Origin: an uncultured Roseovarius sp.
GTDB taxonomy: Bacteria > Pseudomonadota > Alphaproteobacteria > Rhodobacterales > Rhodobacteraceae
DNA: 50,997 nt
Direction of reading: 5' to 3'
Assembly: GCF_913054395.1 (NCBI RefSeq)
Contig: NZ_CAJXIP010000007.1
Location: 1 to 50,997 of the forward strand
Below the pieces are notes generated by a model. It saw only the letters and a list, made by a program, of their open reading frames with translations, was not told the DNA's origin and did not search any database. The first letter of the stretch is position 1, and every line of letters starts with the position of its first letter. The translations under genes and the position numbers were made by a program. This document shows positions 1 through 50,997 of the stretch, in pieces.

Positions 1-1836
1 CTCGGGCGTCGTGCGGACGCTGATGTCGTGCGTCGTGTTCTTCAGCAGGTATTCCTCGACGCCGCGCAGAACGTGGAGCGCGATGGAGGACTGCGACCGC
101 ACGTGGCCGGTGCCGCCGCAATGCGAGCAGACCTGCGTTGTGGATTCCAGCACCGATGCGCGGATACGCTGGCGCGACATTTCCAGAAGACCGAAATGCG
201 AGATGCGTCCAACCTGGATGCGCGCACGGTCGTTCTTCAGGCAATCCTTGAGCCTCTTCTCGACGGCGCGGTTGTTGCGCTTCTCTTCCATGTCGATGAA
301 GTCGATGACGATGAGGCCGGCAAGGTCGCGCAGGCGGAGCTGGCGGGCAACCTCTTCGGCGGCCTCCAGGTTGGTCTGCAGCGCCGTGTCCTCGATCGAG
401 TGCTCGCGGGTCGAGCGACCGGAGTTGACGTCGATGGCGACGAGCGCTTCCGTCTGGTTCATGATCAGATAGCCGCCGGACTTCAGCGTCACCTGCGGCT
501 GCAGCATGCGGTCGAGCTGTGCCTCGATGCCGGAGCGCGAGAAGATCGGATGCAGGTCGCGGTAGGGCTGGACCACCTTGGCGTGGCTCGGCATCAGCAT
601 CTTCATGAAGTCTTTCGCTTCACGATAGCCTTCTTCACCGGCAACGATGATTTCCGAGATGTCCTTGTTGTAGAGGTCGCGGATCGAACGCTTGATCAGC
701 GAGCCTTCCTCGTAGACAAGGCATGGAGCCATCGAGCTGAGCGTCAGCGTGCGGACGTTCTCCCACAGGCGCATCAGATATTCGAAGTCGCGCTTGACCT
801 CGACGCGGGTGCGGTTGGCACCTGCGGTGCGCAGGATCACGCCCATGCCCTGCGGCACTTCGAGCTCGCGGGCAATTTCCTTCAGGCGCTTGCGGTCCTG
901 CGGGCTGGTGATCTTGCGGGAAATCCCGCCGCCCCGCGCCGTGTTCGGCATCAGCACCGAGTAGCGACCGGCAAGCGACAGATAGGTGGTCAGGGCTGCA
1001 CCCTTGTTGCCGCGCTCTTCCTTCGCCACCTGCACCAGCAGGATCTGGCGGCGCTTGATCACTTCCTGGATGCGGTACTGCTTGCGCGGCCGACGTACGA
1101 CGCGGTCGGGAACCTCTTCCATGGCGTCTTCTGCGCCGACGGATTCGATCTCTTCCTTCTCGCCGTTGTCGTCGTCGTCATCATCGTCGTCATTGTTGCG
1201 ACGGTCTCGGATGTCTTCGGAGATCGAATCGGTCTCGACCATGGCCGCCATTTCGCCGGGCGTGCCCTTGTCGTCGCCATCGGACGTCTCGGGAGCTGAC
1301 TCGTCGGTCGTAGCCTCGACCGCTTCGGCGTCCACTGGCTTCTTGCGCGCACGGCTGCGGCGCGGCTTTGCCTTCGGCTTTTCCGGTTCGGCGGCGGCTG
1401 CTTCGCCGGGGCTGACCTCGGCGGCTTCGGCACCGGCCTCGCTGGCGGCCGCTTCCGCCGAAAGTGCGGCCGGCTCGTTGACGTAGGGCTGTTCGGCGGA
1501 CGCCGGGTCGACGGGATCCGCCGAGTCGTCATCGGCGATCCGCCGCTGATCTTCCGCTTCGGCCTGCTTCAGGGCCTGCCGGTCGGCATGCGGGATCTGG
1601 TAGTAATCGGGGTGAATTTCGGCGAAAGCCAAGAACCCGTGACGGTTGCCGCCATAATCGACAAAGGCTGCCTGCAGCGAGGGCTCGACCCTCGTCACCT
1701 TTGCCAGATAGATATTGCCGCGGATCTGTTTCTTGTGTTGGGACTCGAAATCGAATTCTTCAATACGGTTGCCGCGAACGACGACTACCCGCGTCTCCTC
1801 TTCGTGAGACGCGTCGATGAGCATTTTGTCTGCCAT
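1..1836 (-). CDS. rne: Ribonuclease E, N-terminal 612 residues (3' end beyond the window)
   Basis: Endoribonuclease at the core of the RNA degradosome; it cuts AU-rich single-stranded RNA and matures rRNA and tRNA. The frame runs from the ATG at 1836-1834 to the window edge with no stop, so the C-terminal scaffold is missing. Visible in order: the start MADKMLIDASHEEETRV, an S1 RNA-binding domain from about residue 37, the catalytic magnesium-binding motifs with VAIDVNSG and IVIDFID, and a Zn-link CSHCGG near the truncated end. The S1 domain is interrupted by a long low-complexity insert at about residues 88-250, rich in Ala, Glu and Pro, with a basic patch and an Asp tract; such inserts are common in alphaproteobacterial RNase E. 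The sequence is Rhizobiales-like. It is divergent from amiC, with a long structured leader. Confidence 0.96.
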   Translation of the reverse strand, partial: MADKMLIDASHEEETRVVVVRGNRIEEFDFESQHKKQIRGNIYLAKVTRVEPSLQAAFVDYGGNRHGFLAFAEIHPDYYQIPHADRQALKQAEAEDQRRIADDDSADPVDPASAEQPYVNEPAALSAEAAASEAGAEAAEVSPGEAAAAEPEKPKAKPRRSRARKKPVDAEAVEATTDESAPETSDGDDKGTPGEMAAMVETDSISEDIRDRRNNDDDDDDDDNGEKEEIESVGAEDAMEEVPDRVVRRPRKQYRIQEVIKRRQILLVQVAKEERGNKGAALTTYLSLAGRYSVLMPNTARGGGISRKITSPQDRKRLKEIARELEVPQGMGVILRTAGANRTRVEVKRDFEYLMRLWENVRTLTLSSMAPCLVYEEGSLIKRSIRDLYNKDISEIIVAGEEGYREAKDFMKMLMPSHAKVVQPYRDLHPIFSRSGIEAQLDRMLQPQVTLKSGGYLIMNQTEALVAIDVNSGRSTREHSIEDTALQTNLEAAEEVARQLRLRDLAGLIVIDFIDMEEKRNNRAVEKRLKDCLKNDRARIQVGRISHFGLLEMSRQRIRASVLESTTQVCSHCGGTGHVRSQSSIALHVLRGVEEYLLKNTTHDISVRTTPE

Positions 1837-1871
1837 GTAAATTCTGCTCCTCGGCGCAGCCGAGCAGGTGC

Positions 1872-1897
1872 AAAAAGGCCTGCCGCTAGGACAGGCC
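1872..1897 (-). terminator. Terminator-like hairpin inside the rne leader
   Basis: On the minus strand, GGCCTG (1897-1892) can pair with CAGGCC (1882-1877) across a 9-nt loop, followed directly by TTTTT (1876-1872). This is the form of an intrinsic terminator, yet it lies between any distant rne promoter and the rne ATG at 1836. It could be an attenuator, or the 3' end of a leader-derived small RNA. The 6-bp stem is short, so efficiency is uncertain. Confidence 0.5.
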
Positions 1898-2093
1898 GTT
1901 CATGCATGATGGTGATTGCGCCGGAAAAAATGGTTCCCTTTGAACGATGTTGCGGCGACAGCCGGACGGCTGACGGAGCATTTGGCTCCTTCAGGGTATC
2001 CAGGTTCTGAAACACTTGCCGAGACATGAAAGTCCAAACGAGAACGACGATATCTTAGGCCTCGAGGGCCGGTGGAGGTGCTCTTGTTGAGCT

Positions 2094-2111
2094 TGGGTGG
2101 CGCGCCACCCA
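2094..2111. repeat. 18-bp perfect palindrome in the rne leader
   Basis: TGGGTGGCGCGCCACCCA reads the same on both strands. In rne leader RNA it could form a GC-rich hairpin, or it could serve as a dimeric protein-binding site in the rne/amiC intergenic region. Its function is unknown. Confidence 0.5.
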
Positions 2112-2373
2112 GTATGTGACCGGCCAACGCCGGATGAGATCGAGTATCAGGAATAAAATGTACAGACGGCGGATGAACTGCTCGGATTCGGCGCCAGGTT
2201 CCTTTTGGGCTGGCCAGCCTGCGGGCAGACTATCCCGTCAACACTTTAGTCCTTAACCGCCTTGTATGGTTTCCGTGACATAATAGCAAGGGAAAAGCCC
2301 GTACCGCCATATTCTCGATTGAATTAAGAGGCTAGTGGAAGCCGTTGATTCGTAAGCGCCGATCAGCAAAATC

Positions 2374-3672
2374 ATGCATGTTCGGGCGCCCACGAAAGAC
2401 GGGGACATTGAAGTCGGCAAGCGGGACGACGTCGGAATGATGGTTACCAGAGGGCGCATCGCTGCGCCGAAGCGGTTGATCGCGCGAATCGGGCGCGGCG
2501 CCGTGTTCGGCATTCTTTCCGTCGCGCTGTTGGGCGTCGGCGGACTGCAGGCTGCGGACAAGCCGCTCCTGGCCTTTGCGGCCCGTATCGCCGGCGATGA
2601 TGCCCGCACCCGGATTGTCATCGATTTCGACGAAAAGCCGGAGTTTTCCGTTCACTATGTGGCCGCGCCGGAACGGGTGGTGGTCGACCTTCCGGCAACC
2701 GCGTTCGGCTTTCCCGACGAGGATCTTGCCGCGCGCGGCCTGTTCAACGACATCCGCTTCGGCGCCATGGACGAAACCAGTGCCCGTCTTGTTCTGACCG
2801 CCAAGCGGCCGGTGCAGTTGAGCCTTGCCGAGGTGCAGGAGGGCGAGAACGGCGAGTTCCGCCTGGTTCTGGATGCGGAGATGGCCACGGCCGAGGCTTT
2901 CCAGAAACTTGTCCAGGGCCAGGAGTGGGAAGGCAGTGCGGCTGCCGCCGATGAGTCTCTTGCCGCCGTCGACGATGACGCCTTCGTCGTGGCAATCGAT
3001 GCCGGCCATGGCGGCATCGACACCGGAGCGATCGGCACGACGACGCAGACCCCGGAAAAGTCGATCACGCTGTCGTTCGCGAAACTGCTCGCCGAGGAAC
3101 TGGGCGGCGAGGCGGGCATCGACGCCGTGCTGACCCGCGACGACGACGTGTTCCTGTCCCTCTCCGAGCGGGTGACGCTGGCGCGCCAGGCGAAGGCGGA
3201 CCTGTTTATCTCCCTGCACGCCGACACCCTCAGCCAGAAGGACATCCGTGGCGCGACTGTCTATACGCTCTCCGACCGCGCCTCCGACCGCATGGCCGAA
3301 AACCTTGCGGCGCGTGAGAACCTTTCCGATCAGATCGCGGGAATCCGCCTGAAGGACGAGCCGCCGGAGGTCGCCGACATCCTCCTCGACCTGACCCGCC
3401 GCGAGACCCAGGCTTTTTCCGTGACGCTCGCTCAGAACGTCCTCAGCTCGTTCGAAGGGCAGGTCGGCCTGATCAACAACGCCCACCGTCATGCCGGTTT
3501 CCAGGTGCTGCGCGCTCCCGATATCCCGTCGGTGCTGCTGGAACTCGGCTTCCTGTCCAATGCGGATGATGAGAAGCTTCTTCTCGACGAGGCCTGGCGC
3601 AAGAAGGTGAGCAGGCTGCTGGTTGATGCGGTCGGCCGTTACAAGAACATGGCGGTTGCCAACGGCGGCTGA
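2374..3672 (+). CDS. amiC: N-acetylmuramoyl-L-alanine amidase, AMIN plus Amidase_3
   Basis: Periplasmic zinc amidase that removes the stem peptide from muramic acid in peptidoglycan, needed to separate daughter cells. The protein has 432 aa. After a basic N-terminus there is a hydrophobic export segment (residues about 42-59), then an AMIN domain (about 65-170) that targets the protein to the septum, and the catalytic domain from about 205. The expected zinc and catalytic residues are visible: His in DAGHGG, Glu in TPEKSI, His in SLHAD and Glu in LLELGF. A start at 2437 (411 aa) would give a more typical signal peptide and is a real alternative. The gene precedes mrcA in the same direction, a conserved pairing of wall hydrolase and synthase downstream of rne. 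Confidence 0.94.
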   Translation: MHVRAPTKDGDIEVGKRDDVGMMVTRGRIAAPKRLIARIGRGAVFGILSVALLGVGGLQAADKPLLAFAARIAGDDARTRIVIDFDEKPEFSVHYVAAPERVVVDLPATAFGFPDEDLAARGLFNDIRFGAMDETSARLVLTAKRPVQLSLAEVQEGENGEFRLVLDAEMATAEAFQKLVQGQEWEGSAAAADESLAAVDDDAFVVAIDAGHGGIDTGAIGTTTQTPEKSITLSFAKLLAEELGGEAGIDAVLTRDDDVFLSLSERVTLARQAKADLFISLHADTLSQKDIRGATVYTLSDRASDRMAENLAARENLSDQIAGIRLKDEPPEVADILLDLTRRETQAFSVTLAQNVLSSFEGQVGLINNAHRHAGFQVLRAPDIPSVLLELGFLSNADDEKLLLDEAWRKKVSRLLVDAVGRYKNMAVANGG

Positions 3673-3918
3673 GGGGACGGCGGGTTGCGGGTTGGCAACA
3701 CCGCCAGCAGAAACGCACCTGGCGCAGAGTTGGGAGCTGGGAGGAGGGGACTCGAGCCCTATTTTCCTCACATTCAAACCGTTAGTCGCAGCCAAGTGCT
3801 ACGGCGACTCGGTTGCTGAGCCTATGCCTGCTTGCGCAGGGACATCCGCCGTGCAAAACCGCATCAATCGTGCGATGGTGTGCTGGCACCGAATGACAAG
3901 CCGAACGGTAGCTTCGAT

Positions 3919-6375
3919 ATGATCAGACTTATTGGGTATTTCTTTGGATTGGCATGCGTTCTGTTTCTGGGCGTTGCCGTCGTCGCCGCGATTTATCTCG
4001 CCGGCGTTTCCCGGGATCTGCCCAATTACGAGGTTCTGAATTCCTACGAGCCGCCCGTCGCCACCCGCGTCCATGCGGGCAATGGCGCCCTGATGGCCGA
4101 ATATGCCCGCGAGCGGCGTCTCTTCCTGCCGATCCAGGCGATCCCGCACCGGGTCAAGGCGACCTTTCTTTCGGCCGAAGACAAGAATTTCTACAATCAT
4201 CCGGGCGTCGATCCGGCGGGCTTGGCGCGCGCCATCGTCAACAACCTCCAGAACATCGGTTCCGGTCGCCGGCCGGAAGGCGCATCGACGATCACCCAGC
4301 AGGTGGCGAAGAACTTCCTGCTCAGCAACGACCAGACCATCGACCGCAAGGTCAAGGAAGCCATTCTGTCCTTCCGCATCGAGCAGACCTATTCGAAAGA
4401 CAAGATCCTCGAGCTCTACCTGAACGAGATCTTCTTCGGCCTGAATTCCTACGGCATCGCCGGGGCGGCGCTGACCTACTTCGACAAGTCCGTGACCGAG
4501 CTGACCATCGCCGAGTCCGCCTATCTGGCGGCCCTGCCGAAGGGCCCCAACAACTACCACCCGTACCGGCGCGAAGCCGCGGCCATCGAGCGCCGCAACT
4601 GGGTCGTCGATCGGATGGCCGAAAATGGCTACATCACGCCAGCCGATGCGGCCGAGGCCAAGCAGCAGCCACTTGGCGTGAAGCCGAGGACCGGTGGTTC
4701 GCATCTTGCGGCCTCTGAATATTTCGCCGAGGCGGTCCGTCGCGAGATCATCGAGAAATACAGCGACGACACGCTCTACGAAGGCGGCCTTTCCATCCGC
4801 ACCTCGCTTGATCCGGAACTCCAGGTTCTGGCGCGTGCCGCTCTCCACAATGGCCTCGTCCAGTACGACGAGCGGCGCGGCTTCCGTGGACCGCTCTCCA
4901 GGATCGCCGTGAGCGGCGACTGGGGACCGGAGCTCGCCAAGGTACCAAGCCTTCGCGATGTGCCGGAATGGCAGGTCGCGGTGGTGATTGCCGTCTCGAG
5001 CAAGGAAGTCGATATCGGGCTGCAGCCTTCCACGGATGCCGGCGACAAGGTTGATGAAGCACGCAAGATGGGCGTGATCAAAGCCGAGAACATGAAGTGG
5101 GCCTACCGCGACGCCGCGGGCGAGCGGAAGACGGCGAAATCGCCGGAAGGCGTTCTCGAGCCGGGCGACGTTGTCTATGTCGAGCCGATCGCCGACGAGG
5201 AAGGCAGCTATCGCCTGCGCCAGCCGCTGAAGGTGCAGGGCGGTTTCGTCGCCATGGACCCCAACACCGGCCGCGTGCTGGCCATGACAGGCGGCTTTTC
5301 CTATGCGCAGTCGGAATTCAACCGCGCGACGCAGGCGATGCGTCAGCCGGGCTCCTCCTTCAAGCCGTTCGTCTACGCGGCCGCGCTCGACAACGGCTAT
5401 ACGCCCGCTTCGGTGATCCTCGATGCGCCGATCGAAATGGTTTCGGGCGGCCAGGTGTGGCGACCGGAAAACTACGGCGGCGGATCGGCCGGCCCGCAGA
5501 CCCTGCGGCTTGGGATCGAGAAGTCCCGCAACCAGATGACCGTGCGGCTGGCGCAGGACATGGGCATGGAGCTTGTGGCGGAATATGCGGAGCGCTTCGG
5601 CATCTATGACGACATGCTGCCGGTGCTGGCCATGTCCCTTGGCTCCGGGGAAACTACCGTGCTGCGCATGGTTTCCGCCTACGCCGTGATTGCCAATGGC
5701 GGCAAGCAGATCAAGCCGACCGTCATCGACCGTATCCAGGACCGCTATGGCAACACGATCTTCCGCCACGAGGAGCGCACCTGCGACGGCTGCAATGCCA
5801 CGGCCTGGACGGGCCAGGACGAGCCGACCCTGGTCGACAACCGAGAGCAGGTCCTCGACCCGATGACCGCCTACCAGATCACCTCGATGATGGAAGGCGT
5901 GGTCAAGCGCGGAACCGCGGCCGGCAAGATCAACATTTCGGATCGTCCGGTTGCCGGCAAGACGGGCACCACCAACGACGAGAAGGATGCCTGGTTCGTC
6001 GGGTTCACGCCCAACCTCGTGGCCGGTGTCTACGTCGGCTTCGACACGCCGGCACCGCTTGGTCGCGGCAGCACCGGCAGCGGGCTTGCTGCGCCGATTT
6101 TCGCTGACTTCATGGAGAAGGCGGTCAAGCATCTGCCGGCGGAGAAATTCCTTGTGCCTGAAGGGATGCAGTTCATCCCGGTCAATCGGACGACGGGCAT
6201 GATGGCCTTCGAAGGCGAACCGGATACGATCGTGGAAGCCTTCAAGCCCGGAACCGGCCCGGCCGTCGTCTTTGCCGTCATCGGCGAGGGCGAGTACCTG
6301 CCACCGGAAGAGATCCTCGAGACCTCTCCGCAGGCGCAGCAGGCGGTCACATCCGGTGCGGCCGGCCTCTTCTAG
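3919..6375 (+). CDS. mrcA: Penicillin-binding protein 1A, bifunctional transglycosylase/transpeptidase
   Basis: Class A PBP that polymerises lipid II into glycan strands and cross-links the stem peptides. It has 818 aa, the usual length. A single N-terminal membrane anchor (residues about 5-28) is followed by a GT51 domain with the catalytic Glu in SAEDKNF (about residue 87). An OB-like insert comes next, then the penicillin-binding domain with SxxK in GSSFKPF (Ser about 479), SRN, and KTGTTN (about 680). The start chosen is the ATG at 3919 that opens with the hydrophobic anchor; an upstream ATG at 3832 would add an unsupported hydrophilic stretch. All catalytic motifs are intact. The sequence is strongly Rhizobiales-like. 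It lies 246 bp after amiC and 102 bp before prfB. Confidence 0.97.
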   Translation: MIRLIGYFFGLACVLFLGVAVVAAIYLAGVSRDLPNYEVLNSYEPPVATRVHAGNGALMAEYARERRLFLPIQAIPHRVKATFLSAEDKNFYNHPGVDPAGLARAIVNNLQNIGSGRRPEGASTITQQVAKNFLLSNDQTIDRKVKEAILSFRIEQTYSKDKILELYLNEIFFGLNSYGIAGAALTYFDKSVTELTIAESAYLAALPKGPNNYHPYRREAAAIERRNWVVDRMAENGYITPADAAEAKQQPLGVKPRTGGSHLAASEYFAEAVRREIIEKYSDDTLYEGGLSIRTSLDPELQVLARAALHNGLVQYDERRGFRGPLSRIAVSGDWGPELAKVPSLRDVPEWQVAVVIAVSSKEVDIGLQPSTDAGDKVDEARKMGVIKAENMKWAYRDAAGERKTAKSPEGVLEPGDVVYVEPIADEEGSYRLRQPLKVQGGFVAMDPNTGRVLAMTGGFSYAQSEFNRATQAMRQPGSSFKPFVYAAALDNGYTPASVILDAPIEMVSGGQVWRPENYGGGSAGPQTLRLGIEKSRNQMTVRLAQDMGMELVAEYAERFGIYDDMLPVLAMSLGSGETTVLRMVSAYAVIANGGKQIKPTVIDRIQDRYGNTIFRHEERTCDGCNATAWTGQDEPTLVDNREQVLDPMTAYQITSMMEGVVKRGTAAGKINISDRPVAGKTGTTNDEKDAWFVGFTPNLVAGVYVGFDTPAPLGRGSTGSGLAAPIFADFMEKAVKHLPAEKFLVPEGMQFIPVNRTTGMMAFEGEPDTIVEAFKPGTGPAVVFAVIGEGEYLPPEEILETSPQAQQAVTSGAAGLF

Positions 6376-6477
6376 CCTGAACCAAGGGATATCTCTGCGC
6401 CGGCGCGGCCTTTACATCCGCGGCCGGCGCAACTATGTCCACCCCGTCTTCCAATCAAGCGAGAGTAAGAAATACCC

Positions 6478-7609
6478 ATGCGGGCTGAAATCATTGGCGT
6501 CGTCGACGAAATCAAGCAGGCCATAAGCCTGCTGAGGAGGCATCTTTGACTGGGATCAGGCGGTACGACGGCTGGACTGGCTGAACAACAAGGCAGAGGA
6601 TCCCAACCTCTGGAACGATGCCACCGAAGCCCAGAAGCTGATGCGCGAGCGCCAGCAGCTCGATGACAGCATTGCCGGCGTCAAGCGCCTCGAGCAGCAG
6701 CTGAACGACAACATCGAGCTGATCGAGATGGGCGAGGAAGAGGGCGACGAGAGCGTTGTCAAGGATGCCGAGGACGCCCTGAAGACCCTGAAGGCCGAAT
6801 CGGACCGTCAACAGGTCGAGGCGATGCTGTCCGGCGAGGCCGACGGCAACGACACCTATGTCGAAGTCCATTCCGGCGCTGGCGGAACCGAGTCCCAGGA
6901 CTGGGCCAACATGCTGCTGCGCATGTACACCCGCTGGGCCGAACGCTCCGGCTACAAGGTCGAGATCCTGGAAATGCACGACGGCGAAGAGGCCGGCATC
7001 AAGTCCGCGACGATCCTGATCAAGGGCCACAATGCCTATGGCTGGATGAAGACCGAATCGGGCGTGCACCGCCTCGTGCGGATCTCGCCCTATGACTCGA
7101 ATGCGCGGCGGCACACGTCGTTCTCGTCGGTCTGGGTCTATCCGGTCGTCGACGACTCGATCAACATCGACATCAACGAGAGCGACTGCCGCATCGACAC
7201 CTTCCGGGCCTCGGGCGCCGGCGGCCAGCACATCAACACCACCGACTCGGCCGTCCGCATCACGCACATTCCGACCGGCATCGTGGTGTCCTGCCAGCAG
7301 GAGCGTTCGCAGCACAAGAACAAGGCCAAGGCCTGGGAGATGTTGCGTGCCCGCATGTACGAAGCAGAGTTGAAGAAGCGGGAAGAGGCGGCCAATGCCG
7401 AAGCCGCGTCCAAGACCGAGATCGGCTGGGGGCACCAGATCCGCTCCTACGTGCTGCAGCCCTACCAGATGGTCAAGGACCTGCGCACCGGGGTGGAGAG
7501 CTCCGCGCCGGACGATGTCCTGAACGGCGACCTCAATCCCTTCATGGAAGCGGCTCTTGCCCACCGGATCAGCGGCAAGGCCGACGCTGGCATCGACGAC
7601 GTCGACTGA
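6478..7609 (+). CDS. prfB: Peptide chain release factor 2, expressed by programmed +1 frameshift
   Basis: RF2 recognises UGA and UAA stop codons and triggers hydrolysis of peptidyl-tRNA. The coding sequence is split: 6478-6546 is read in frame to CTT, the ribosome slips +1 over T6547 at an in-frame TGA (6547-6549), and reading resumes at 6548 to the stop at 7607-7609. The slip site CTT TGA C is preceded by AGGAGG at 6535-6540, the internal Shine-Dalgarno element known to stimulate this event. The joined product has 376 aa, the normal RF2 length, with the GAGGQ catalytic motif and an SPY version of the SPF stop-reading tripeptide ([13 protein letters not shown]), as I recall for alphaproteobacterial RF2. 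Annotators that ignore the frameshift would start the gene at 6641 and lose the N-terminus. Confidence 0.96.
6535..6550 (+). promoter_or_regulatory. prfB: prfB programmed +1 frameshift signal
   Basis: AGGAGG, CAT, then CTTTGAC. This matches the E. coli prfB arrangement (SD-like element, 3-nt spacer, CUU UGA C). When RF2 is scarce the UGA is read slowly and the ribosome shifts forward, so RF2 regulates its own synthesis. Confidence 0.97.
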
Positions 7610-7634
7610 CAGCCCTGGGCCGGACGATGATATG

Positions 7635-7671
7635 AGAAGAGCGGCCGCATCGACGGCCGCTCTTCTGCATT
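7635..7671. terminator. Strong terminator between prfB and the NAD kinase gene
   Basis: A perfect 13-bp inverted repeat (7635-7647 with 7654-7666) with a 6-nt loop, followed on the plus strand by GCATTTTA. It sits 25 bp past the prfB stop and 75 bp past the convergent NAD kinase stop, so it can end transcription in both directions, although the T-tract is short. Confidence 0.85.
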
Positions 7672-7741
7672 TTAGGGGGGGAACGCGCTGGAATGACGCT
7701 TGGCGTCAGTTGGCCCGGCCTCAAGCGCGGCTTGTGCGATC

Positions 7742-8515
7742 TCAGTTGTTGAACTGCTCGGCCACGATGCGGTCCGACCAGGAGTGGTCCGGATCGGACA
7801 GGATGCGCGCCGTCATCTCCTGGGACTGGGCGATCTCTACGTGCAGCACCGACTTCACCTCCATGTTGTCGGCGACCGCGTTCACCGGGCGCTTGTCGGG
7901 CTCCAGAATGTGGATGTCGACGCGGACCTGATTGGGCAGAAGGGCGCCCCGCCAGCGGCGCGGCCGGAAGGCGCTGACCGGCGTCATGGCCAGCAGCGGC
8001 GCTTCGAGCGGCAGGATCGGCCCATGGGCCGAAAGATTGTAGGCCGTCGATCCCGCCGGTGTGGCGATCATCAGCCCGTCGCAGATCAGCTCGTCGAGCC
8101 GCACCTGGCCGTCGATCTCGACGCGCAGCTTGGCGGCCTGGTAGGACTGCCGGAACAGATAGACCTCATTGATGGCCAATGCGATGGAGCTTGTGCCGTC
8201 GGCGTTGGTCGTCTTCATCTGCAGGGGATGCAGCGTGTTCTCCACCGCGACCTCGATCCGCTCCCGCAGGTTCTCGGTGCGGTAGTCGTTCATCAGGAAG
8301 CCCACGGAGCCGCAGTTCATGCCATAGACGGGCTTGCCCGAGCTCATCGTGCCATGCAGCGTGTGCAGCATGAAGCCGTCGCCTCCCAGCGCCACGACGA
8401 CGTCGGCGTCATTGTCGGAGATATTGCCGTAGATGCCGATCAGCTCCTCGCGCGCAGCAAGAGCCTCGGGGGCGGAGGACGCACAGAAAGAGAGGGACTT
8501 GGCTGGGTTCGACAT
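7742..8515 (-). CDS. nadK: NAD kinase
   Basis: Phosphorylates NAD to NADP in the cytoplasm with ATP (or polyphosphate in some homologues). It has 257 aa, the normal rhizobial length. The start is the ATG at 8515 giving MSNPAKSLSF, preceded by a GAGG-containing ribosome site; the frame extends upstream to 8680 but that extension resembles nothing. The family GGDG motif is at residues 44-47 (VALGGDGFML). The middle carries NEVYLFRQ and the conserved TPAGSTAYNLSAHGPI segment, and the C-terminus ends with SDPDHSWSDRI. The closest resemblance I recognise is to Rhizobium-type NAD kinases. It is convergent with prfB. Confidence 0.95.
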   Translation of the reverse strand: MSNPAKSLSFCASSAPEALAAREELIGIYGNISDNDADVVVALGGDGFMLHTLHGTMSSGKPVYGMNCGSVGFLMNDYRTENLRERIEVAVENTLHPLQMKTTNADGTSSIALAINEVYLFRQSYQAAKLRVEIDGQVRLDELICDGLMIATPAGSTAYNLSAHGPILPLEAPLLAMTPVSAFRPRRWRGALLPNQVRVDIHILEPDKRPVNAVADNMEVKSVLHVEIAQSQEMTARILSDPDHSWSDRIVAEQFNN

Positions 8516-8687
8516 GGCTCGCCTCGTATTAGCGGCCATACCTACCCGCAAAAATCCTTTGAAGACAAGCGCTTTGCGCCTGAACTGGTACTCCCGATCG
8601 GCTACCCCGGGAGCCGGAGATCTCGACAAAACGCAATTTTTCGCTTTACAGGAAAGCAGAATCTGGTAACTCGACGGCATTGGAAAT

Positions 8688-8763
<76 letters not shown>

Positions 8764-10669: not shown

Positions 10670-10672
10670 TCC

Positions 10673-13022: not shown

Positions 13023-13157
13023 AATGCCGCTCCTTCTTGGCGCGACGCGTTCCTGCGCCGTTAATAGATAGATTACTTGCCGCCCCTTATGATACGCTCA
13101 CCCCGGGACAGCAAGAAACCCGCATAAGAAAACACGGGCAATCAGGCACAATCGACC

Positions 13158-14796: not shown

Positions 14797-16707
<1,911 letters not shown>

Positions 16708-37396: not shown

Positions 37397-37499
37397 GCAA
37401 AAAGCCTACGCAAAATCCGGGCCACAGGCCATAGCCCGGCTTCTTCTTGGGCCAAATACTCATTCCGACCGCAAGGCCCCGTGCCCGGCCGACTTTCCA

Positions 37500-37548: not shown

Positions 37549-37562
37549 AGGCCCCGCCGCGC

Positions 37563-38555: not shown

Positions 38556-38600
38556 GGTGATTGTCCTTTCCTGTCGTGCCGTCGGCTTGGCGGATAAAAC

Positions 38601-42392: not shown

Positions 42393-42462
42393 GCGTCCGT
42401 GCCCTTTGTCAGCGGTTGGACTTGAGTATTTTTGGAAAGATGAAAGGTCATATGGGCGCGCC

Positions 42463-43725
42463 TCAATGCAGGTTGGGCTGATTGCCCTGACCTTTTTCGT
42501 CGATCAGGTTGCCGCGCCTGAACCGGTCAAGACGCATTTGCGTGGCCACCGGGTGGGGTGTGTCCTTGGCCAGCAGATGCGCATAGCACATGCCGCTTGC
42601 CGGCGTTGCCTTGAACCCGCCATAGCACCAGCCGCCGTTGAAATAGAGGCCGTCGATATCGGTTTTGTCGATGAAGGGAGAGCCATCCATCGACATATCC
42701 ATGATGCCGCCCCAGCTTCGCAGCAGGCGGGCGCGCCCGATCATCGGCATGATCGCCATGCCGCCCTCGGCGACGTCCTCGACCACGGGCAGGTTGCCGC
42801 GTTGCGCATAGGAATTATAGCCGTCGATATCGCCGCCAAACACGAGCCCGCCCTTGTCGGACTGACTAACGTAGAAATGGCCCGCCCCGAAGGTGATCAC
42901 GCCGGGCAGGACCGGTTTGAGGCCTTCGGTCACGAACGCCTGGAGAACATGGCTTTCGATCGGCAGGCGCATGCCCGCCTGCGCCATCACCCGGCCCGAC
43001 GAGCCGGCGACACAGACCGCGACCTTGCGCGCACGGATCGCACCGCGCGAGGTTTGAACACCGCGGCATTTGCCGTTTTCGATGTCAAAGCCGGTCACCT
43101 CGCAGTTCTGGATGATATCCACGCCGCGTTCATCCGCACCGCGCGCATAGCCCCAGGCCACTGCATCGTGGCGCACCGTGCCGCCCCGCCGCTGAAACAA
43201 CCCGCCCTTGATCGGGAAGCGCGCGTTTTCATAATCGAGGAACGGCAATTCGGCGCGAAGCTGTTCGGTGGTTGCAAGCTCGGCATCGGCACCGGCCAGG
43301 AACATCGCGTTGGCGCGGCGCACGAAGGCATCACGCTGTGCATCGGTGTGAAACAGGTTCAGGATCGACCGCTGGCTGACCATGGCATTATAGTTGAAAT
43401 CCTGTTCAAGCCCCTCCCAGAGCTTGAGCGACATTTCATAAAACGGTTCATTGCCCGGCAGCATGTAATTCGAGCGGATGATCGTGGTGTTGCGCCCGAT
43501 ATTGCCCGAGCCGATCCAGCCCTTTTCGAGAACCGCGATGTTGCGCATCCCGAATTCTCGGGCGAGGTAATAGGCCGTTGCCAGACCATGACCGCCGCCA
43601 CCGATGATCACGATGTCATATTCCGGTTTCGGGTCAGGCTCGCGCCAAACCGGTTTCCAGCCTTTGTTCCCGGTCAGCCCCTCGCGGAGGATTTTCAAGG
43701 CAGAGTAGCGCATGAGGCGATGCAT
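42463..43725 (-). CDS. soxB: Sarcosine oxidase beta subunit
   Basis: Catalytic subunit that oxidises sarcosine with FAD; a second flavin, FMN, is bound covalently at a His. It has 420 aa from the ATG at 43725, or 416 from an ATG at 43713 (MRYSAL), which matches the family length better. The FAD-binding motif is IIGGGGHGLATAYYLA (about residues 40-55), followed by VLEKGWIGSGNIGRNTTI. The probable FMN-His is in RHDAVAW (about 186). First gene of soxB-soxD-soxA-soxG, divergent from a GlxA-type regulator. Confidence 0.95.
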   Translation of the reverse strand: MHRLMRYSALKILREGLTGNKGWKPVWREPDPKPEYDIVIIGGGGHGLATAYYLAREFGMRNIAVLEKGWIGSGNIGRNTTIIRSNYMLPGNEPFYEMSLKLWEGLEQDFNYNAMVSQRSILNLFHTDAQRDAFVRRANAMFLAGADAELATTEQLRAELPFLDYENARFPIKGGLFQRRGGTVRHDAVAWGYARGADERGVDIIQNCEVTGFDIENGKCRGVQTSRGAIRARKVAVCVAGSSGRVMAQAGMRLPIESHVLQAFVTEGLKPVLPGVITFGAGHFYVSQSDKGGLVFGGDIDGYNSYAQRGNLPVVEDVAEGGMAIMPMIGRARLLRSWGGIMDMSMDGSPFIDKTDIDGLYFNGGWCYGGFKATPASGMCYAHLLAKDTPHPVATQMRLDRFRRGNLIDEKGQGNQPNLH

Positions 43726-43874
43726 CCTGTTGGTGTCTCTGATCCAGCATCGCGTTTTAACCAAGGATAGACTTGCCTGAAAAAGTCACATACGTACCAA
43801 ATATGGACAAGATTACACGAAACCCGGCCTAGCCCCTGAGAATCGGCATCCTGCCGATAGAAGGCTTTGCGCTT

Positions 43875-44768
43875 ATGTCCTATGCCGCCACGACAGAACC
43901 CTGGCGCGCCGCCAACCTTTTGGCCGGGCGCAGGTTGTACGAGGTGATCAACATCGCCGCCACGGCCAGACCGGTCGCAAGTTCCGGGGCCGCCGAGATA
44001 ACGCCGCAGGCGGGGCTGGGGGATGATCTTCGCCTTGATTACCTGTTTGTAGTCGCCGGGGGCGATCCGGCCCTTTATCCTGCCCGGCCAATCACCGCAT
44101 GGCTCACGCGACAGGCACGCGCCGGGGTTGTCCTTGGCGGGGTATCGGGCGGGCCGATCATCCTGGCGCGCGCCGGGCTAATGGCTGGGCGGCGTATGAC
44201 GGTGCATTGGGAATATGCCACGGCCCTGGCCGAAATTTCGCCGCAGCTTGCGATCGAGCGCACGCTTTACGTGATCGACCGCGACCGGATGACCTGTGCC
44301 GGGGGCACCGCGCCGATGGACCTTATGCATGCGTTGATTGCCCAGCATCATGGCACCGATTTCGCCCGTCACGTCAGCGACTGGTTCATGCATACCGAGA
44401 TCCGCCCGCCCACCGGGCCACAGCGATCGGGGCTTGTCGAGAGGGTCGGCACTCATGCTCCGGCCATTCTGGACGCGGTCGAGGCGATGGAGGGCAATAT
44501 CGCCGATCCCCTGCGCCTTGATCAGCTTGCAAAACAGGCGCGACTGTCGGCGCGGCAACTCAACCGGCTGTTTCAGGACAAGCTTGGCACCACGACCATG
44601 GGCTATTACCGCGAATTGCGGCTGGAGCGGGCGCAGAACCTGCTGCGCAATTCGGGCCTGTCGCTGACCGAGATCGCACTTGCCACCGGCTTTGCCAGTT
44701 CCTCGCATTTCTCGCGGGCCTATACCGCGCAATTCGGACAGGCACCCTCGCGCTATCGCCAAGCGTAA
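43875..44768 (+). CDS. GlxA-family regulator (GATase1-like plus AraC HTH), divergent from soxB
   Basis: 297 aa from the ATG at 43875. Sensor domain (MSYAATTEPWRAANLLAGRRLY, then GVVLGGVSGGPIILARAGLM) followed by a C-terminal AraC DNA-binding part (LDQLAKQARLSARQLNRLF and LTEIALATGFASSSHFSRAY). In-frame codons just upstream, back to 43836, encode IGILPIEGFAL, which is the first strand of this domain, so the true start may be a CTG at 43836; there is no ATG, GTG or TTG before an in-frame TAG at 43830. Its position opposite soxB suggests it controls sarcosine oxidase. Confidence 0.88.
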   Translation: MSYAATTEPWRAANLLAGRRLYEVINIAATARPVASSGAAEITPQAGLGDDLRLDYLFVVAGGDPALYPARPITAWLTRQARAGVVLGGVSGGPIILARAGLMAGRRMTVHWEYATALAEISPQLAIERTLYVIDRDRMTCAGGTAPMDLMHALIAQHHGTDFARHVSDWFMHTEIRPPTGPQRSGLVERVGTHAPAILDAVEAMEGNIADPLRLDQLAKQARLSARQLNRLFQDKLGTTTMGYYRELRLERAQNLLRNSGLSLTEIALATGFASSSHFSRAYTAQFGQAPSRYRQA

Positions 44769-44784
44769 AGTGCTGAATCAGACC

Positions 44785-45579
44785 CTAGTCTGGCCGCCGC
44801 CTGGTTTGATCCGCCTGAAGCAGCGCCTCGATTCTGGCGAGCCGCCCGACGACCTCGTCGCGATGACTGTCGGTCCTTTCGACATCCTCAGCATGGTGCG
44901 CATCCTGCATTGAATTCACGATCAGACCGACCAGAAGGTTCACCACGGCAAAGGTCGTGACCATGATGAAAGGCACGAAAAACGCCCAAGCATAGGGGAA
45001 CACCTCCATCACCGGGCGTACGATGCCCATCGACCAGGATTCAAGCGTCATGATCTGAAACAGCGAATAGGCAGAGCGCCCCAGATCGCCAAACCACTCG
45101 GGGAAATGTGCGCCGAAAAGCTTGGTCGCCATGACCGAACCGATGTAAAACAGCATCCCCATCAGCAGGAAAACCGACCCCATTCCCGGCAGGGCATTGA
45201 CCAGCCCTTCGACCACCCGGCGCAAGGACGGCGCAACCGAAACCACCCGCAAAAGCCGCAGGATGCGCAGCGCGCGCAGCACCGAAAGACCTTGCGTGGC
45301 GGGCACCAGAGAGATGCCGACGATCACGAAATCAAAGATGTTCCAGCCGCGAGAGAAAAACCCGGTCACACCGCGTGCAAAAAGCTTGGCCGCGATTTCA
45401 ACCACGAAGACCGCAAGGCAAAGCTGATCCAAAAGGGTGATGAGATCACCGGCCCGATCCATGACCGGGGCCGAGGTTTCCATTCCCAGAATGAGGGCGT
45501 TGAACAGGATCACCCCGAGAATGGCGTTCTGAACAGTGGATTTATCGAGGAAGCTGCCGACGTGGGTGCGAGAAATCAT
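44785..45579 (-). CDS. Bacterial voltage-gated sodium channel (NavBac)
   Basis: 264 aa, six membrane segments plus pore loop, active as a homotetramer in the inner membrane. The voltage sensor S4 has Arg at 102, 105, 108 and 111, at every third position as expected. The selectivity filter is TLESWSMG (178-185), the same as I recall for the NavMs channel. A C-terminal coiled-coil-prone tail (about 225-264, VERTDSHRDEVVGRLARIEALLQ) fits tetramer assembly. Sodium selectivity follows from the LESW motif by family knowledge. Convergent with the GlxA-type regulator. Confidence 0.93.
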   Translation of the reverse strand: MISRTHVGSFLDKSTVQNAILGVILFNALILGMETSAPVMDRAGDLITLLDQLCLAVFVVEIAAKLFARGVTGFFSRGWNIFDFVIVGISLVPATQGLSVLRALRILRLLRVVSVAPSLRRVVEGLVNALPGMGSVFLLMGMLFYIGSVMATKLFGAHFPEWFGDLGRSAYSLFQIMTLESWSMGIVRPVMEVFPYAWAFFVPFIMVTTFAVVNLLVGLIVNSMQDAHHAEDVERTDSHRDEVVGRLARIEALLQADQTRRRPD

Positions 45580-45656
45580 GGGCCTGCCTATATGTCCTGC
45601 CTGAATATTTGCGCTTCATATGGGCGCACACCGGCAAAGCTGCAAGCCGCGAACCT

Positions 45657-46043
45657 CTAGTCCTTGGCGCGCGCAAGCATCCGGCCAAGCGGACGACCGC
45701 CGAGAATATGCAGATGGTAATGCGGCACCTCCTGCACGCCATTCTCGCCCGCGTTGCTTATGCTGCGAAAGCCATCGCCGCCCTCGCCCGGCTGCACGCC
45801 GGTCAGGCGGCAAACCTCGCCCACCGTTCGGGTGAAATCGACGATTTCGGCATCTGTCGCGGCAAGGGCGAAATGATCGTGACAGACATAGGGCCCCTTG
45901 GGGATCACCAGCACATGCACCGGCGCCTGCGGCTCGATGTCATAGAACGCCAGGCTATGCCCGGTTTCCAGAACGGTCTTATTGGGGATTTCACCGCGCA
46001 GAATCTTGGCGAAAATGTTCTGCTCGTCATAGGCATAGGGCAT
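45657..46043 (-). CDS. HIT family nucleotide hydrolase (HINT-like)
   Basis: 128 aa. The histidine triad is HYHLHILGG near the C-terminus, with an upstream IFAKILRGEIPNKTV and a VIPKG segment, the HINT subgroup pattern. It probably hydrolyses AMP-linked substrates such as adenosine phosphoramidates. Begins 8 bp after the glycosyltransferase gene in the same direction. Confidence 0.93.
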   Translation of the reverse strand: MPYAYDEQNIFAKILRGEIPNKTVLETGHSLAFYDIEPQAPVHVLVIPKGPYVCHDHFALAATDAEIVDFTRTVGEVCRLTGVQPGEGGDGFRSISNAGENGVQEVPHYHLHILGGRPLGRMLARAKD

Positions 46044-46051
46044 GGTGGTCC

Positions 46052-47629
46052 TCAGTCTGCAAAAAGATGGTCTTGTCGGGTGATTTCATGCGCCTTTTCG
46101 CGCGAGATATCAAGGAAGCGCACCAGAAGATCGGCATGCTGATCGCGCTCGTCGGATTGACGCAGGATCAGATGGTTTTCAAAACCTGCATCCCGGATAC
46201 TGTCGCTTTCATAGGTCATGTCGCCCCGGATGGTCGGTAACAGCCGCGCAAGCGTATCCTCGGGCGTCTGTTCGCCGGTAAGGCCGACGCGCATGGCATG
46301 ACCGATAAGGTATTCATCGCTAAAATCGCATTGTACCTCCAAAAGTCTGGTGGTCGCGCGGTCCCCGCAGAAATCCTGCAACAGATCAATGCTGCCGGGG
46401 TCCATGCACACGATAAGGCGGTCGGTTTCGTAATAATCAAACAGCATCCGCATCAGGGCACGGCGATGGCGCGTGCGTTTGGCCAAGGTGGCCTGAATGC
46501 CCCCCAGATCAGGCAGGGCCGTGCTCTCTTCGTTAAACAGGTACTCGATCGCGGGCAGGTTCGTGACCTGGCGAATCCGGTCCAGCAGACGCTTGGCCAC
46601 ATGCCATTTCTTGCAGACCACGATCATCAATTCGCGCTCGCGGCCGAGGCTGCTTTCGGTTTCCCAGAAACGGCTTGCAAAGCGGCGCCCATCACGGCCT
46701 CGCGCCGAAAGAAACTTGAAGAGACTGCGCCCCTCGTCGGAAATCTGGAAGCGGGCGCTGTCATTGGCATAAAGCATGCCAAGACGTCGCTTGAGTTCCA
46801 GCGCCTCAGGGCTGATCTTGCGGGCAAACAGGTAATCCTGACCCAGCAAAAGATCGTAGTGATCGTTATAAAAGGTCACCGGCATGCCGTAATCGGTGAA
46901 CATCAGGAACGTCAGGGTCCGGGTGCTGATCTCATTTTCGGGCACCAGATGGGGCACCAGCGTTTGAAAAAACGTCTCGTCGGGAATCCAGGTCGTGCGA
47001 AAGAAGCGCATCACGTCGCGCCGCTTGCGCGTGAAATCAAGAATCCATTCAATCGTGCGGCGGCGCAGACACCACCACTGGCTTCCGATCTGAACCTGGA
47101 TGTCGCGCGGGATCTCGCGGGTCAGGCCAAGCCTGGTTTGCAGGTTGTAAGAGGCATAGAACCTTTTGGGCTGGGTCCGTTCATTAAAGAAGTGGCGGTA
47201 AATAAGCCGCTCTTCCTTCATCCCGGTCTTGATCCAGTCACTGTCGAAGTAATCAAAGCTTTCGATGTAATCGACATCCGCGGAATCCAGAAACTCATGC
47301 GCAAAGCTGGCGGATTTGATCGGCGCGCAATCCCCCGACAGCATGTAGAAATGCGTGGCGCGCGGAAAGGCTTGGACTGCGGCCTCGACAGCGTAAAGCG
47401 TCGCCTGCACAAGCGACCACTCGCCCCAACCGCACTTGATCCGCTTTTTGGCGAAGGTCACATTCGGATTGTCGGCCAATTCGGTTTTGATCCGCTCGAA
47501 ATACTCGGGCTTGGCGCGGGCATCGAAATGAACCGCCATATAGTCGCCCGCCGCCGTAAGCATCTGCGCCTGACGAATAATCGCCTCGGGGTCTTTATGG
47601 CATAGAAGGATAAAGGCGATTTTTGCCAT
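46052..47629 (-). CDS. GT14-like beta-1,6-N-acetylglucosaminyltransferase with a C-terminal extra domain
   Basis: 525 aa. The N-terminal half (about residues 1-270) resembles core-2/I-branching glycosyltransferases: IAFILLCHKDPEAI, CGWGEWSLVQATLYAVEAA, FYMLSGDCAPIKS, and GSQWWCLRRRTIEWIL. The C-terminal half (about 300-525) is an uncharacterised domain found in roseobacters (DUF5928-like, from memory). No signal peptide is seen, so it acts in the cytoplasm. It lies opposite a sulfotransferase gene, pointing to synthesis of a sulfated surface glycan; donor and acceptor are not known. HIT follows it on the same strand. Confidence 0.82.
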   Translation of the reverse strand: MAKIAFILLCHKDPEAIIRQAQMLTAAGDYMAVHFDARAKPEYFERIKTELADNPNVTFAKKRIKCGWGEWSLVQATLYAVEAAVQAFPRATHFYMLSGDCAPIKSASFAHEFLDSADVDYIESFDYFDSDWIKTGMKEERLIYRHFFNERTQPKRFYASYNLQTRLGLTREIPRDIQVQIGSQWWCLRRRTIEWILDFTRKRRDVMRFFRTTWIPDETFFQTLVPHLVPENEISTRTLTFLMFTDYGMPVTFYNDHYDLLLGQDYLFARKISPEALELKRRLGMLYANDSARFQISDEGRSLFKFLSARGRDGRRFASRFWETESSLGRERELMIVVCKKWHVAKRLLDRIRQVTNLPAIEYLFNEESTALPDLGGIQATLAKRTRHRRALMRMLFDYYETDRLIVCMDPGSIDLLQDFCGDRATTRLLEVQCDFSDEYLIGHAMRVGLTGEQTPEDTLARLLPTIRGDMTYESDSIRDAGFENHLILRQSDERDQHADLLVRFLDISREKAHEITRQDHLFAD

Positions 47630-47780
47630 TACAGAAACGATTTAACCCTGATTTCCTGGACTGTTTATAGCAATAGCCGTGAAGAAGGTCCGAATAAACA
47701 GACTTTCTTTGGTTTTTTGAACCGGGTAGACATAATTCAAAGCTGCAAAAAACAGGCAGCAGTGTGCGGAGGCAGTAAAT

Positions 47781-48599
47781 ATGGGGTTCCCAGGCACCTG
47801 GATGACCGAGAGTGAAAGCGTGGTTTATCGCGTGGTTCCGAAATGCGCCTGCTCGACGATCGGTCAGGTTCTTTATTATTCGGATCATGGCAAATTTTTT
47901 GACGGCGACATTCATGACGCGACCGACGGCCTGCATAAATGGGCCCGTGAGGACAGCCAGAAACTGATCAATGCGAATGCCAGGACGCACACCTCTTATG
48001 CCTTCACCTGCGTGAGAAATCCCTACACCCGCATCCTGTCGAGCTTTTTCGACAAGATCTGCGGCATTCAGCGCAACGGCAGGCGCTATCGCGGCAAGCT
48101 TGTGCCGACCCTTGTCCAGAAATACGGGATCGAGGTTGGCGGCGATGACGGCAAACAGGACTTTGACCAAATCAAAAGCTTTCGTCGCTTTCTTTTGTTC
48201 GCGCGCGACACCATCCGCTGGAAACGCCCGATGGAGCCCGACATTCACTGGTCGGCCATGTCGGGCCACGTGTCGACATTCATCGTGAACGGCGGCACCT
48301 ATGACAAGATTTTCTGGACCGAGAAATTCAATGACGGGATGCAAGAGGTGCTTGACGCGATCAACAGCCCGGAAAAGGTCGATCTCAAGAAAATGCCGCG
48401 GTTCAATGAATCCGAGGGGCACGGTCCAAAGCGCGCCCATCCGGTAGAGGACTATTTCGACGATCTGTCGATGCATCTGGTCTATGAAATCTACAAGCGC
48501 GATTTCGAGCTGTTCAAATATGACTTCGAGAATCCTGCCAACAAAATGCCGACCGGCGAAATCGACCTTGCGGAAGTGCATGCAAAGCTGGGCGTTTGA
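47781..48599 (+). CDS. Sulfotransferase family 2 protein
   Basis: 272 aa. The PAPS-binding loop is VVPKCACSTIGQVLYYSDHG (about residues 19-38) and a 3'-phosphate segment is FTCVRNPYTRILSSFFDK (about 75). Similar proteins modify carbohydrates in animals and bacteria. It is divergent from the GT14-like gene (151-bp gap), so the pair probably shares control. It is of a different type from the sulfotransferase at 10.7 kb. Confidence 0.85.
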   Translation: MGFPGTWMTESESVVYRVVPKCACSTIGQVLYYSDHGKFFDGDIHDATDGLHKWAREDSQKLINANARTHTSYAFTCVRNPYTRILSSFFDKICGIQRNGRRYRGKLVPTLVQKYGIEVGGDDGKQDFDQIKSFRRFLLFARDTIRWKRPMEPDIHWSAMSGHVSTFIVNGGTYDKIFWTEKFNDGMQEVLDAINSPEKVDLKKMPRFNESEGHGPKRAHPVEDYFDDLSMHLVYEIYKRDFELFKYDFENPANKMPTGEIDLAEVHAKLGV

Positions 48600-48628
48600 C
48601 CGATAGACCGGTGATTTCATAAGGGGCT

Positions 48629-48656
48629 TTGCATTTGCACCGAACTGGCGTATATG
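48629..48656 (+). promoter_or_regulatory. Probable rpsT promoter
   Basis: TTGCAT, a 16-bp spacer, then TATATG, 125 bp upstream of rpsT. It has the same architecture as the dnaK and rimP promoters in this window. Confidence 0.6.
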
Positions 48657-48780
48657 CCGCCCCATACATGCGCGTGATGCCCGCTCAGGCAAGAATCATG
48701 ACCCCGGAGATCGGGGGCCCGGTCTGGTATCGTTGCGCGTCACATAACACATACCAAACCAAAGTAAGGGTCTGATTCAC

Positions 48781-49044
48781 ATGGCTAATACGCCCCAATC
48801 CAAAAAACGCGCACGTCAGAACGAAACCCGTTTTGCCGTCAACAAGGCGCGTCGCTCGCGCATCCGCACCTTTCTGCGCAAAGTAGAAGAAGCCATCGCA
48901 TCCGGCGATAAGGAAGCGGCAACTGCCGCTCTGCGCGCGGCTCAGCCCGAGCTGATGCGTGGCGTCACCAAAGGCGTGTTCCACAAAAATACCGCTTCGC
49001 GCAAAATTTCGCGCCTTGCTGCACGGGTCAAGGCAATCGCCTAA
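48781..49044 (+). CDS. rpsT: 30S ribosomal protein S20
   Basis: Binds 16S rRNA in the 30S subunit. It has 87 aa and is very basic; the start [15 protein letters not shown] and the helical pattern are diagnostic. It has its own promoter with a leader of about 120 nt and a strong terminator. It lies 486 bp before dnaA, an arrangement known from Rhodobacteraceae. Confidence 0.98.
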
Positions 49045-49530
49045 GCCAACCCAGCTAAGTTATTGAATGCAAAAGGCACCGGTCCGATCGGTGCCTTTTT
49101 GTTTTTCCTCCTCCAAAACAGGCCCGATAGATTCTTTTCAGTCAAAGCCCCTGTCAAGCGCGAAGATCAGTTGCCCGCGCGCTTGCGACTTTGCTAGCTT
49201 CAGCAGGCGATTCACGCTTGGGGGGACAGGCTAAGTCAGCACTCGTATGCTTTTGAGAAACAAAAGCCGTTGTATGCTGTACTCTGCTTATGTCCATTGC
49301 GTATGCATTTTATAAGGCACTCAAAGTGCGCGGTTTTTGGGACGGGCCGCGACACCTTAGTTATGGCTTACTGAAATGTATTTGGCTTTGTGTTAAAGAT
49401 TTGACAGCCGTTGATTTTGGTCATCGGGCAACATGTCTTTTTTTCAAAACCCGATCCTGGTCGCAGACCAAGGCGGCCTGACCATGTCAGGCTGGTATTT
49501 GGATGATCAATAGTCGCGAAACGGGGAAGC
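49045..49530. other. rpsT-dnaA intergenic region
   Basis: 486 bp. It contains the rpsT terminator and, by position, the dnaA promoter; the part from about 49240 is AT-richer than its surroundings. I found no clear set of DnaA boxes (TTATCCACA) here, so I do not call an origin. A 63-codon open frame at 49290-49481 lacks a ribosome site and family features. Confidence 0.55.
49071..49105 (+). terminator. Terminator of rpsT
   Basis: AAAAGGCACCG pairs with CGGTGCCTTTT around GTCCGAT, followed by TTGTTTTT. It lies 26 bp past the stop. Confidence 0.93.
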
Positions 49531-50901
49531 ATGACACAAGATCAATGGGGCCAGTTGAAGCAGAAGCTTCAGCAATCAGTCGGGCAGAGCAATTTCAAGA
49601 ACTGGATTGAACCGCTGGAGTTTTCCGAACTCGCGGATGGTGTGGCGACATTTCAGGTCCCCACCAGCTTTCTTGGCAACTATGTCTCGCAACACTTCGG
49701 CGATCTTATCCTCTATCAGATGAATTCGGTCGTCCCCGACGTCCGACGCATTCACTTTCAGGTGGCAGCCAACACCGCCGAACGCCCCACTCGGGCACCG
49801 GCACGCCAGTCGCAGCCGGCCACAGGCAGCGCGAACGGCATGCCGGCGGGCGACAGCATGGTGCCGACCGCGCCGCTGGATGAGCGCTTTACTTTTGACA
49901 CCTTTGTTGTCGGCAAACCCAACGAACTTGCCAATGCCGCCGCGCGCCGCGTTGCCGAAGGCGGGCCGACAACGTTCAACCCGCTGTTCCTTTACGGTGG
50001 TGTCGGCCTTGGCAAAACCCACCTGATGCACGCCATCGCTTGGGAGCTTCAGACCACCCGTCCAGACCTGAATGTCGTCTACCTGTCGGCCGAACAGTTC
50101 ATGTATCGCTTCGTGCAGGCGCTGCGCGACCGCAAGATGATGGATTTCAAGGAAATGTTCCGCTCGGTTGATGTGCTGATGGTTGATGACGTTCAGTTCA
50201 TCGCGGGCAAGGACAGCACCCAGGAAGAGTTTTTCCACACCTTCAACGCGCTGGTCGATCAGAACAAGCAGATCGTGATTTCCGCCGACCGCGCCCCCGG
50301 CGAAATCGCCAATCTGGAAGAACGGATCAAGTCGCGCCTGCAATGCGGCTTGGTGGTTGACCTGCACCCGACCGATTACGAATTGCGCCTTGGCATCCTT
50401 CAGTCCAAGGTCGAGCGTCACCGCGAACAATATCCCGACCTGAACATGGCCGACGGCGTGCTGGAATTCCTTGCCCATCGCATCAGCACCAATGTGCGCG
50501 TTCTGGAAGGCGCGATGACCCGGCTGTTTGCCTTTGCCTCGCTTGTCGGTCAGCCGATCACGCTTGAGCTGACCCAGGATTGCCTTGCCGATGTGCTACG
50601 CGCCTCCGAACGCAAGGTCTCGGTCGAAGAGATTCAGCGCAAGGTCTCGGATCACTATAACATCCGGCTGAGCGACATGATCGGCCCCAAACGCCTGCGC
50701 AGTTTTGCGCGGCCGCGTCAGGTGGCGATGTTCCTTTGCAAACAGATGACCAGCCGCTCTTTGCCCGAAATCGGCCGCCGGTTTGGCGGACGTGACCACA
50801 CCACCGTGATGCATGGTGTAAAGCGGATCGAGGAACTGCGTATTCAGGATGCCCAGATCGCCGAGGATCTTGAGCTTTTGCGTCGCACCCTCGAGGGTTA
50901 A
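49531..50901 (+). CDS. dnaA: Chromosomal replication initiator DnaA
   Basis: Binds DnaA boxes at oriC and opens the duplex when loaded with ATP. It has 456 aa. Domain I (about 1-85) is followed by a flexible linker rich in Pro/Gln/Ala (about 86-115). The AAA+ domain has Walker A GGVGLGKTH (about residue 152-160) and Walker B VLMVDDVQF. The C-terminal helix-turn-helix ends in the signature GRDHTTVMHGVKRIEEL. Intact and roseobacter-like. Its presence suggests that the right end of the window is near the origin. Confidence 0.98.
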   Translation: MTQDQWGQLKQKLQQSVGQSNFKNWIEPLEFSELADGVATFQVPTSFLGNYVSQHFGDLILYQMNSVVPDVRRIHFQVAANTAERPTRAPARQSQPATGSANGMPAGDSMVPTAPLDERFTFDTFVVGKPNELANAAARRVAEGGPTTFNPLFLYGGVGLGKTHLMHAIAWELQTTRPDLNVVYLSAEQFMYRFVQALRDRKMMDFKEMFRSVDVLMVDDVQFIAGKDSTQEEFFHTFNALVDQNKQIVISADRAPGEIANLEERIKSRLQCGLVVDLHPTDYELRLGILQSKVERHREQYPDLNMADGVLEFLAHRISTNVRVLEGAMTRLFAFASLVGQPITLELTQDCLADVLRASERKVSVEEIQRKVSDHYNIRLSDMIGPKRLRSFARPRQVAMFLCKQMTSRSLPEIGRRFGGRDHTTVMHGVKRIEELRIQDAQIAEDLELLRRTLEG

Positions 50902-50997
50902 GCGCCAGACTTATCCGCACCTGACGGTCAGACCTGCCCCATCGGGCGGCTCTGACCTTGACGCTGCCTCAAATACAGCCGAAAACGCAATAAATCA
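50902..50997. other. Region downstream of dnaA with a hairpin and one DnaA-box-like site
   Basis: TTATCCGCA at 50911-50919 differs from the DnaA box TTATNCACA at one position. At 50926-50957 GGTCAGA and TCTGACC flank a further GC-rich pairing, forming a strong hairpin with no U-tract. The next gene, likely dnaN, would start outside the window. Confidence 0.35.

Follow-up and report, generated by a model that had tools for sequence, protein, structure and literature searches.

Conserved sequence common to several organisms is a described cause of assembly errors that join different genomes (metaMIC; PMC9661791). As a counterpoint, the authors of GUNC rate misassembly as relatively rare compared with mis-binning (PMC8201837). 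The window, that is, the whole stretch of 50,997 nucleotides analysed here, corresponds to G000:C7:1-50997, and G000 is a genome of 262 contigs that total 3.76 Mb, with a completeness of 95.89 and a contamination of 2.15, which we infer to be a metagenome bin. Contig C7 resembles an inter-genome translocation misassembly in the sense of the metaMIC paper (PMC9661791), in that its two flanks stem from different genomes and its breakpoint probably lies in conserved sequence, but it was called from comparative evidence and a sister contig and not from reads. Like the chimeric genomes with a lineage conflict inside contigs that GUNC treats (PMC8201837), G000 carries core genes of a distant lineage despite its low reported contamination; as a difference, the surplus copies in G000 amount to partly redundant contamination.

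Judged by comparison of sequences, C7 is most probably an inter-genome misassembly, an artefact and no remarkable gene transfer, and we put the probability of this reading at roughly 0.95. A sequence-only reading had noticed that a single contig combines core genes from two alphaproteobacterial orders, which protein identities, DNA blocks and a PrfB tree bear out. Of the two explanations it offered, that of a chimeric contig is favoured by a second contig, C43, which breaks at the same 20-mer with a different foreign partner, and that of a foreign housekeeping segment is opposed by native gene copies elsewhere in G000 and by C43. The features of the window are as follows.

1-8763, strand not given: Rhizobiaceae arm, rne-amiC-mrcA-prfB-nadK-tRNA-Thr, from blastn gene order, protein identity, PrfB tree and tRNA
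Within this left arm, minus strand: rne, truncated by the contig end
Within this left arm, minus strand: nadK
8688-8763, left arm: tRNA-Thr(TGT)
9374-12183, plus strand: flippase-, sulfotransferase- and hexapeptide acyltransferase-like genes, from Pfam, foreign to the host genus
12180-13022, minus strand: hybrid cysQ (Inositol_P family, PF00459), 5' part native and 3' part rhizobial, from Pfam and protein identity
12373-12392, plus strand: proposed join, the 20-mer TCCCATTCCATCGTGCGTCC, the longest word that C43 and the window share exactly around cysQ
12393-50997, strand not given: native arm, with cysQ 5' part, ABC permease, alkB, dnaK, dnaJ, radC, secA, infB, nusA ... dnaA, from DNA identity

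The gene order of the left arm, rne to tRNA-Thr, matches Rhizobiaceae and Rhizobium loci by blastn. We compared its proteins with Rhizobiales-type reference loci (L032-L092 and L139-L163, mainly Rhizobiales) and with the second copies in G000. Identity to the best Rhizobiales-type locus was 83% for the partial rne product (612 aa), 65% for amiC, 79% for mrcA, 87% for prfB and 82% for nadK, versus 59%, 37%, 47%, 61% and 56%, respectively, for the second copies, and these ranges (65-87% versus 37-61%) agree with the initial impression that all five genes are Rhizobiales-like. A single-gene PrfB tree, in which 18 of 48 inner branches are open, placed the window copy beside Rhizobium sp. Root274 (support 99/97) inside Rhizobiaceae, and the other PrfB of G000, on contig C80, within the host genus. 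Its 51 rows comprise the window PrfB, 29 loci (L003-L031), 20 of 80 named loci and the C80 copy; L002, the thirtieth locus of the PrfB sampling, is the window itself. The window PrfB reached only 60-63% identity to the best PrfB of each same-genus genome (23 of 23 sampled). The rhizobial donor itself did not turn up among the matches listed from 297 Rhizobium-family genomes, searched by DNA with at most two candidates scored per genome; the closest of these (G641) was 80% identical across nadK to tRNA-Thr. The native copies of these genes lie on C9 (rne), C80 (mrcA-prfB) and C54 (nadK), and C80 also carries the amiC homologue that is 37% identical to that of the window. Since G000 has each of the five core genes in a native version elsewhere, the left arm is surplus and did not replace native genes.

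The right arm showed 85-91% DNA identity to G001, G010 and G020, which are among the same-genus references, across long blocks: 85-87% to G010 and G020 at 12334-18290, 87% to a single G001 contig at 18018-33814, and 86-88% to all three at 36001-50997. Other genus members were lower, mostly 75-82% across dnaK-dnaJ among the matches listed from 59 other genus genomes (at most five candidates scored per genome). Protein identities to same-genus loci were 88% for the ABC permease, 85% for alkB, 98% for dnaK, 92% for dnaJ and 90% for radC; secA, infB, nusA and dnaA were placed through DNA, inside the 85-91% blocks, and a PDB search confirmed the identity of DnaA. In a plasmid collection, the top-ranked record for SecA (73%) and DnaK (88%) was Qingshengfaniella alkalisoli, of the order Rhodobacterales, Rhizobium-type records gave about 60% for SecA and 73-77% for DnaK, and the permease had a single weak match. 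DnaK, DnaJ, SecA, InfB, NusA and DnaA had been likened to roseobacters, and the DNA identity to the host genus supports that assignment as Rhodobacterales, at the level of the order and not of roseobacters sensu stricto.

Composition also separated the two arms. In hand-picked gene sets, leucine codons shifted from CTG 0.55, CTC 0.24 and CTT 0.17 in five left genes (199 Leu) to CTG 0.43, CTT 0.35 and CTC 0.09 in ten right genes (365 Leu), the change from CTG/CTC to CTG/CTT that had been noticed by eye. Tetranucleotide correlations to Rhizobium references were 0.91 for 1-8770, 0.85 for 8771-12372 and 0.79 for 12393-16000, and those to native references were 0.72, 0.73 and 0.92, respectively; agreement here partly reflects homology in the two regions (1-8.8 kb and 12.3-18.3 kb) whose homologous loci served as references. 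Right of 12001, the only 4-kb block without separation was 28001-32000 (0.78 native, 0.80 Rhizobium).

The transition between the arms falls within cysQ, which is conserved at the join and reads through it as one intact open frame. The N-terminal 210 residues of CysQ share 92% identity with the genus, against 46% with Rhizobiales-type loci, and the C-terminal 45 residues share 80% with L148 (from a Rhizobium mesoamericanum genome), against 58% with the genus; most of CysQ had rightly been assigned to the right-arm side, only its last part being rhizobial. Among the matches listed from the 59 genus genomes, those that extend to this end of cysQ lose homology at 12287-12349, mostly at 12334, none covers 8776-12286, and further left matches occur only at the tRNA. 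We place the proposed join within cysQ, either on 12373-12392 itself or no more than a few tens of bases away, which tightens the interval of 8.7-12.6 kb considered earlier.

The proposed 20-mer, TCCCATTCCATCGTGCGTCC, is shared by the window (12373-12392) and C43 (2331-2350); it occurs once in the window and in none of 100 shuffles. Nine of 194 loci contain it, all from C7, C43 and G388, a member of another genus of the same family. The exact word was absent from the compared genus and Rhizobiales loci, whose closest versions, in G010 and L139, each have a single mismatch; we infer that both partners other than G388 (two of three) carried it exactly. Of the two 60-base flanks of the 20-mer in C43, one is 92% identical to G020 and 90% to G010, and the opposite one is 87% identical to G388. 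In the window, the 60 bases to its right are 83% identical to G020 and G010, and the 60 bases to its left fit a Rhizobium-type locus best (77%), although several such loci are no better than native ones. These left 60 bases resolve lineages poorly: seven Rhodobacterales-side references score 60-65%, and of 18 Rhizobiales-type loci 17 score 62-77% and one is an outlier at 28%. The 18 were kept from 21 Rhizobiales-type cysQ loci, three having no motif at up to five mismatches; two (L149 and L152) were near-random on one or both sides, which we read as misplaced motifs.

We then asked where the native locus continues. In G010 and G020, the dnaK, alkB, ABC permease and cysQ locus runs uninterrupted on one contig into the next genes, which by eye are kdsB-, galU- and galE-like. 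The true native continuation past cysQ in G000 lies on C43 (L134) from 2351 onward, which matches G010 and G020. C43 is itself a second chimeric contig of G000, with about 2.3 kb of G388-like sequence (alkB, ABC permease and cysQ 5' part) followed by native DNA. In windows of 300 bases, C43 from 1 to about 2300 is 86-96% identical to G388 and 66-76% to G010 and G020, except for two pieces of at most 61 bases (80-81%) and the last window of that part, which contains the switch (82%). From 2401 to about 15700, identity is 78-94% to G010 and G020 and 69-82% to G388 where aligned. In a search of 295 sampled genomes of the host family (at most two candidates per genome; G010 and G020 lie outside this sample), G388 was the sole close match among those listed, at 90% over C43 1-2480, the next reaching 71% over that full length and up to 77% over shorter parts only. 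The two hybrid cysQ genes had prompted us to consider a Campbell-type integration, which we rejected: the foreign half of the second gene matches G388, from the host family, and not Rhizobium.

The native core-gene copies of G000, together with the switch of C43 at the same 20-mer, argue for misassembly. When several organisms carry the same word, a k-mer graph error would be expected to split a native locus at that word and to join its two halves to different wrong partners, as seen here, and the foreign piece of C43, which stops at the contig end close to the start of dnaK, resembles a graph fragment. The organisms would have occurred together in one sample, their common cysQ word would have formed one node in the k-mer graph of the assembler, and the assembly walk may have left that node twice by the wrong branch. 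The Rhizobiaceae arm could then have been binned through its attachment to 38.6 kb of native sequence. As a counterpoint, the smallest k of some assemblers exceeds 20 bases.

An additional switch within the left arm, by which the polysaccharide genes of 8764-12180 would come from yet another organism, would supplement misassembly at cysQ and not replace it; we regard it as unlikely. It draws on the lack of any DNA match to this stretch among those listed from the 297 Rhizobium-family genomes, and on the flippase, whose matches, present in 17 of 19 genomes from beyond the host family, reach no more than 21-31%. Against it, tetranucleotides and leucine codons of the stretch (CTC 0.25, CTT 0.21) are closer to the Rhizobium side, the end of cysQ beyond it is rhizobial, and polysaccharide genes vary greatly among relatives. 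An ancestry on the Rhizobium side is only suggested for 9374-12183, which had no DNA match among those listed from either the 59 genus or the 297 Rhizobium-family genomes. The flippase had no match in six genomes inside the host family, and plasmid searches aimed at the source of 8.8-12.2 kb listed no match above about 30% identity. Pfam found no integrase or mobility gene among three ORFs beside the tRNA, and the remaining left arm was surveyed by eye only. At 10673-12183, a sulfotransferase-like gene stands beside the acyltransferase gene and cysQ. As CysQ removes a by-product of sulfotransferases, these neighbours may work together in the donor, provided that its gene order matches the one seen here.

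In a real transfer, at least 12.4 kb of Rhizobiaceae DNA, core genes included, would have entered the native cysQ through homology at the conserved stretch, which would account for a cysQ frame that is intact and conserved at the join, as expected from homologous recombination. We nevertheless consider such a transfer very improbable. To explain C43, another donor would have had to recombine independently at the very same 20 bases, and the segment was seen in no other sampled genus genome (23 for PrfB; 59 by DNA, among the matches listed). Moreover, it runs to the contig end, and the L052 DNA beyond rne matches that end at 88% and otherwise only C46, at 68-75%, with no comparable identity elsewhere in G000. 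The need for two donors and two events at one place disfavours real transfer compared with misassembly. A chimera made at the bench, during amplification or library construction and not by the assembler, seems more improbable still: template switching can occur in short similar sequence and is compatible with the join, but two contigs with long arms switch at one word, and single chimeric molecules would rarely dominate both. Just as little credence goes to the conserved cysQ stretch as a real recombination site at which this Rhodobacterales lineage acquired the Rhizobiaceae housekeeping segment and, in a separate event, a segment from another genus of its family while keeping both core sets.

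If C7 is a misassembly, as we favour, quality control should not take C7 1-12372 or C43 1 to about 2330 as gene transfer. The approach also offers a test for chimerism that needs no reads, which is to find the missing native half of a locus and check for a break at the same word with another partner.

No duplication of the right arm was seen over window 12300-31000, which matches only pieces of C43 elsewhere in G000, and DnaA is single. Scanned for tandem repeats, the window shows one short array, at 29428-29477, away from the join. Synteny with G020 breaks at about 26911-27262: 18016-26910 lies on G020 C61 in plus orientation, and 27262-33915 and 36001-50997 lie further along in minus orientation, while G001 is intact there. 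Finally, GC content at 46001-50000 falls to 0.54-0.55, below the rest of the right arm; this section holds ORFs that by eye are glycosyltransferase- and sulfotransferase-like, and it lies inside the block that is 86-88% identical to three genus members.
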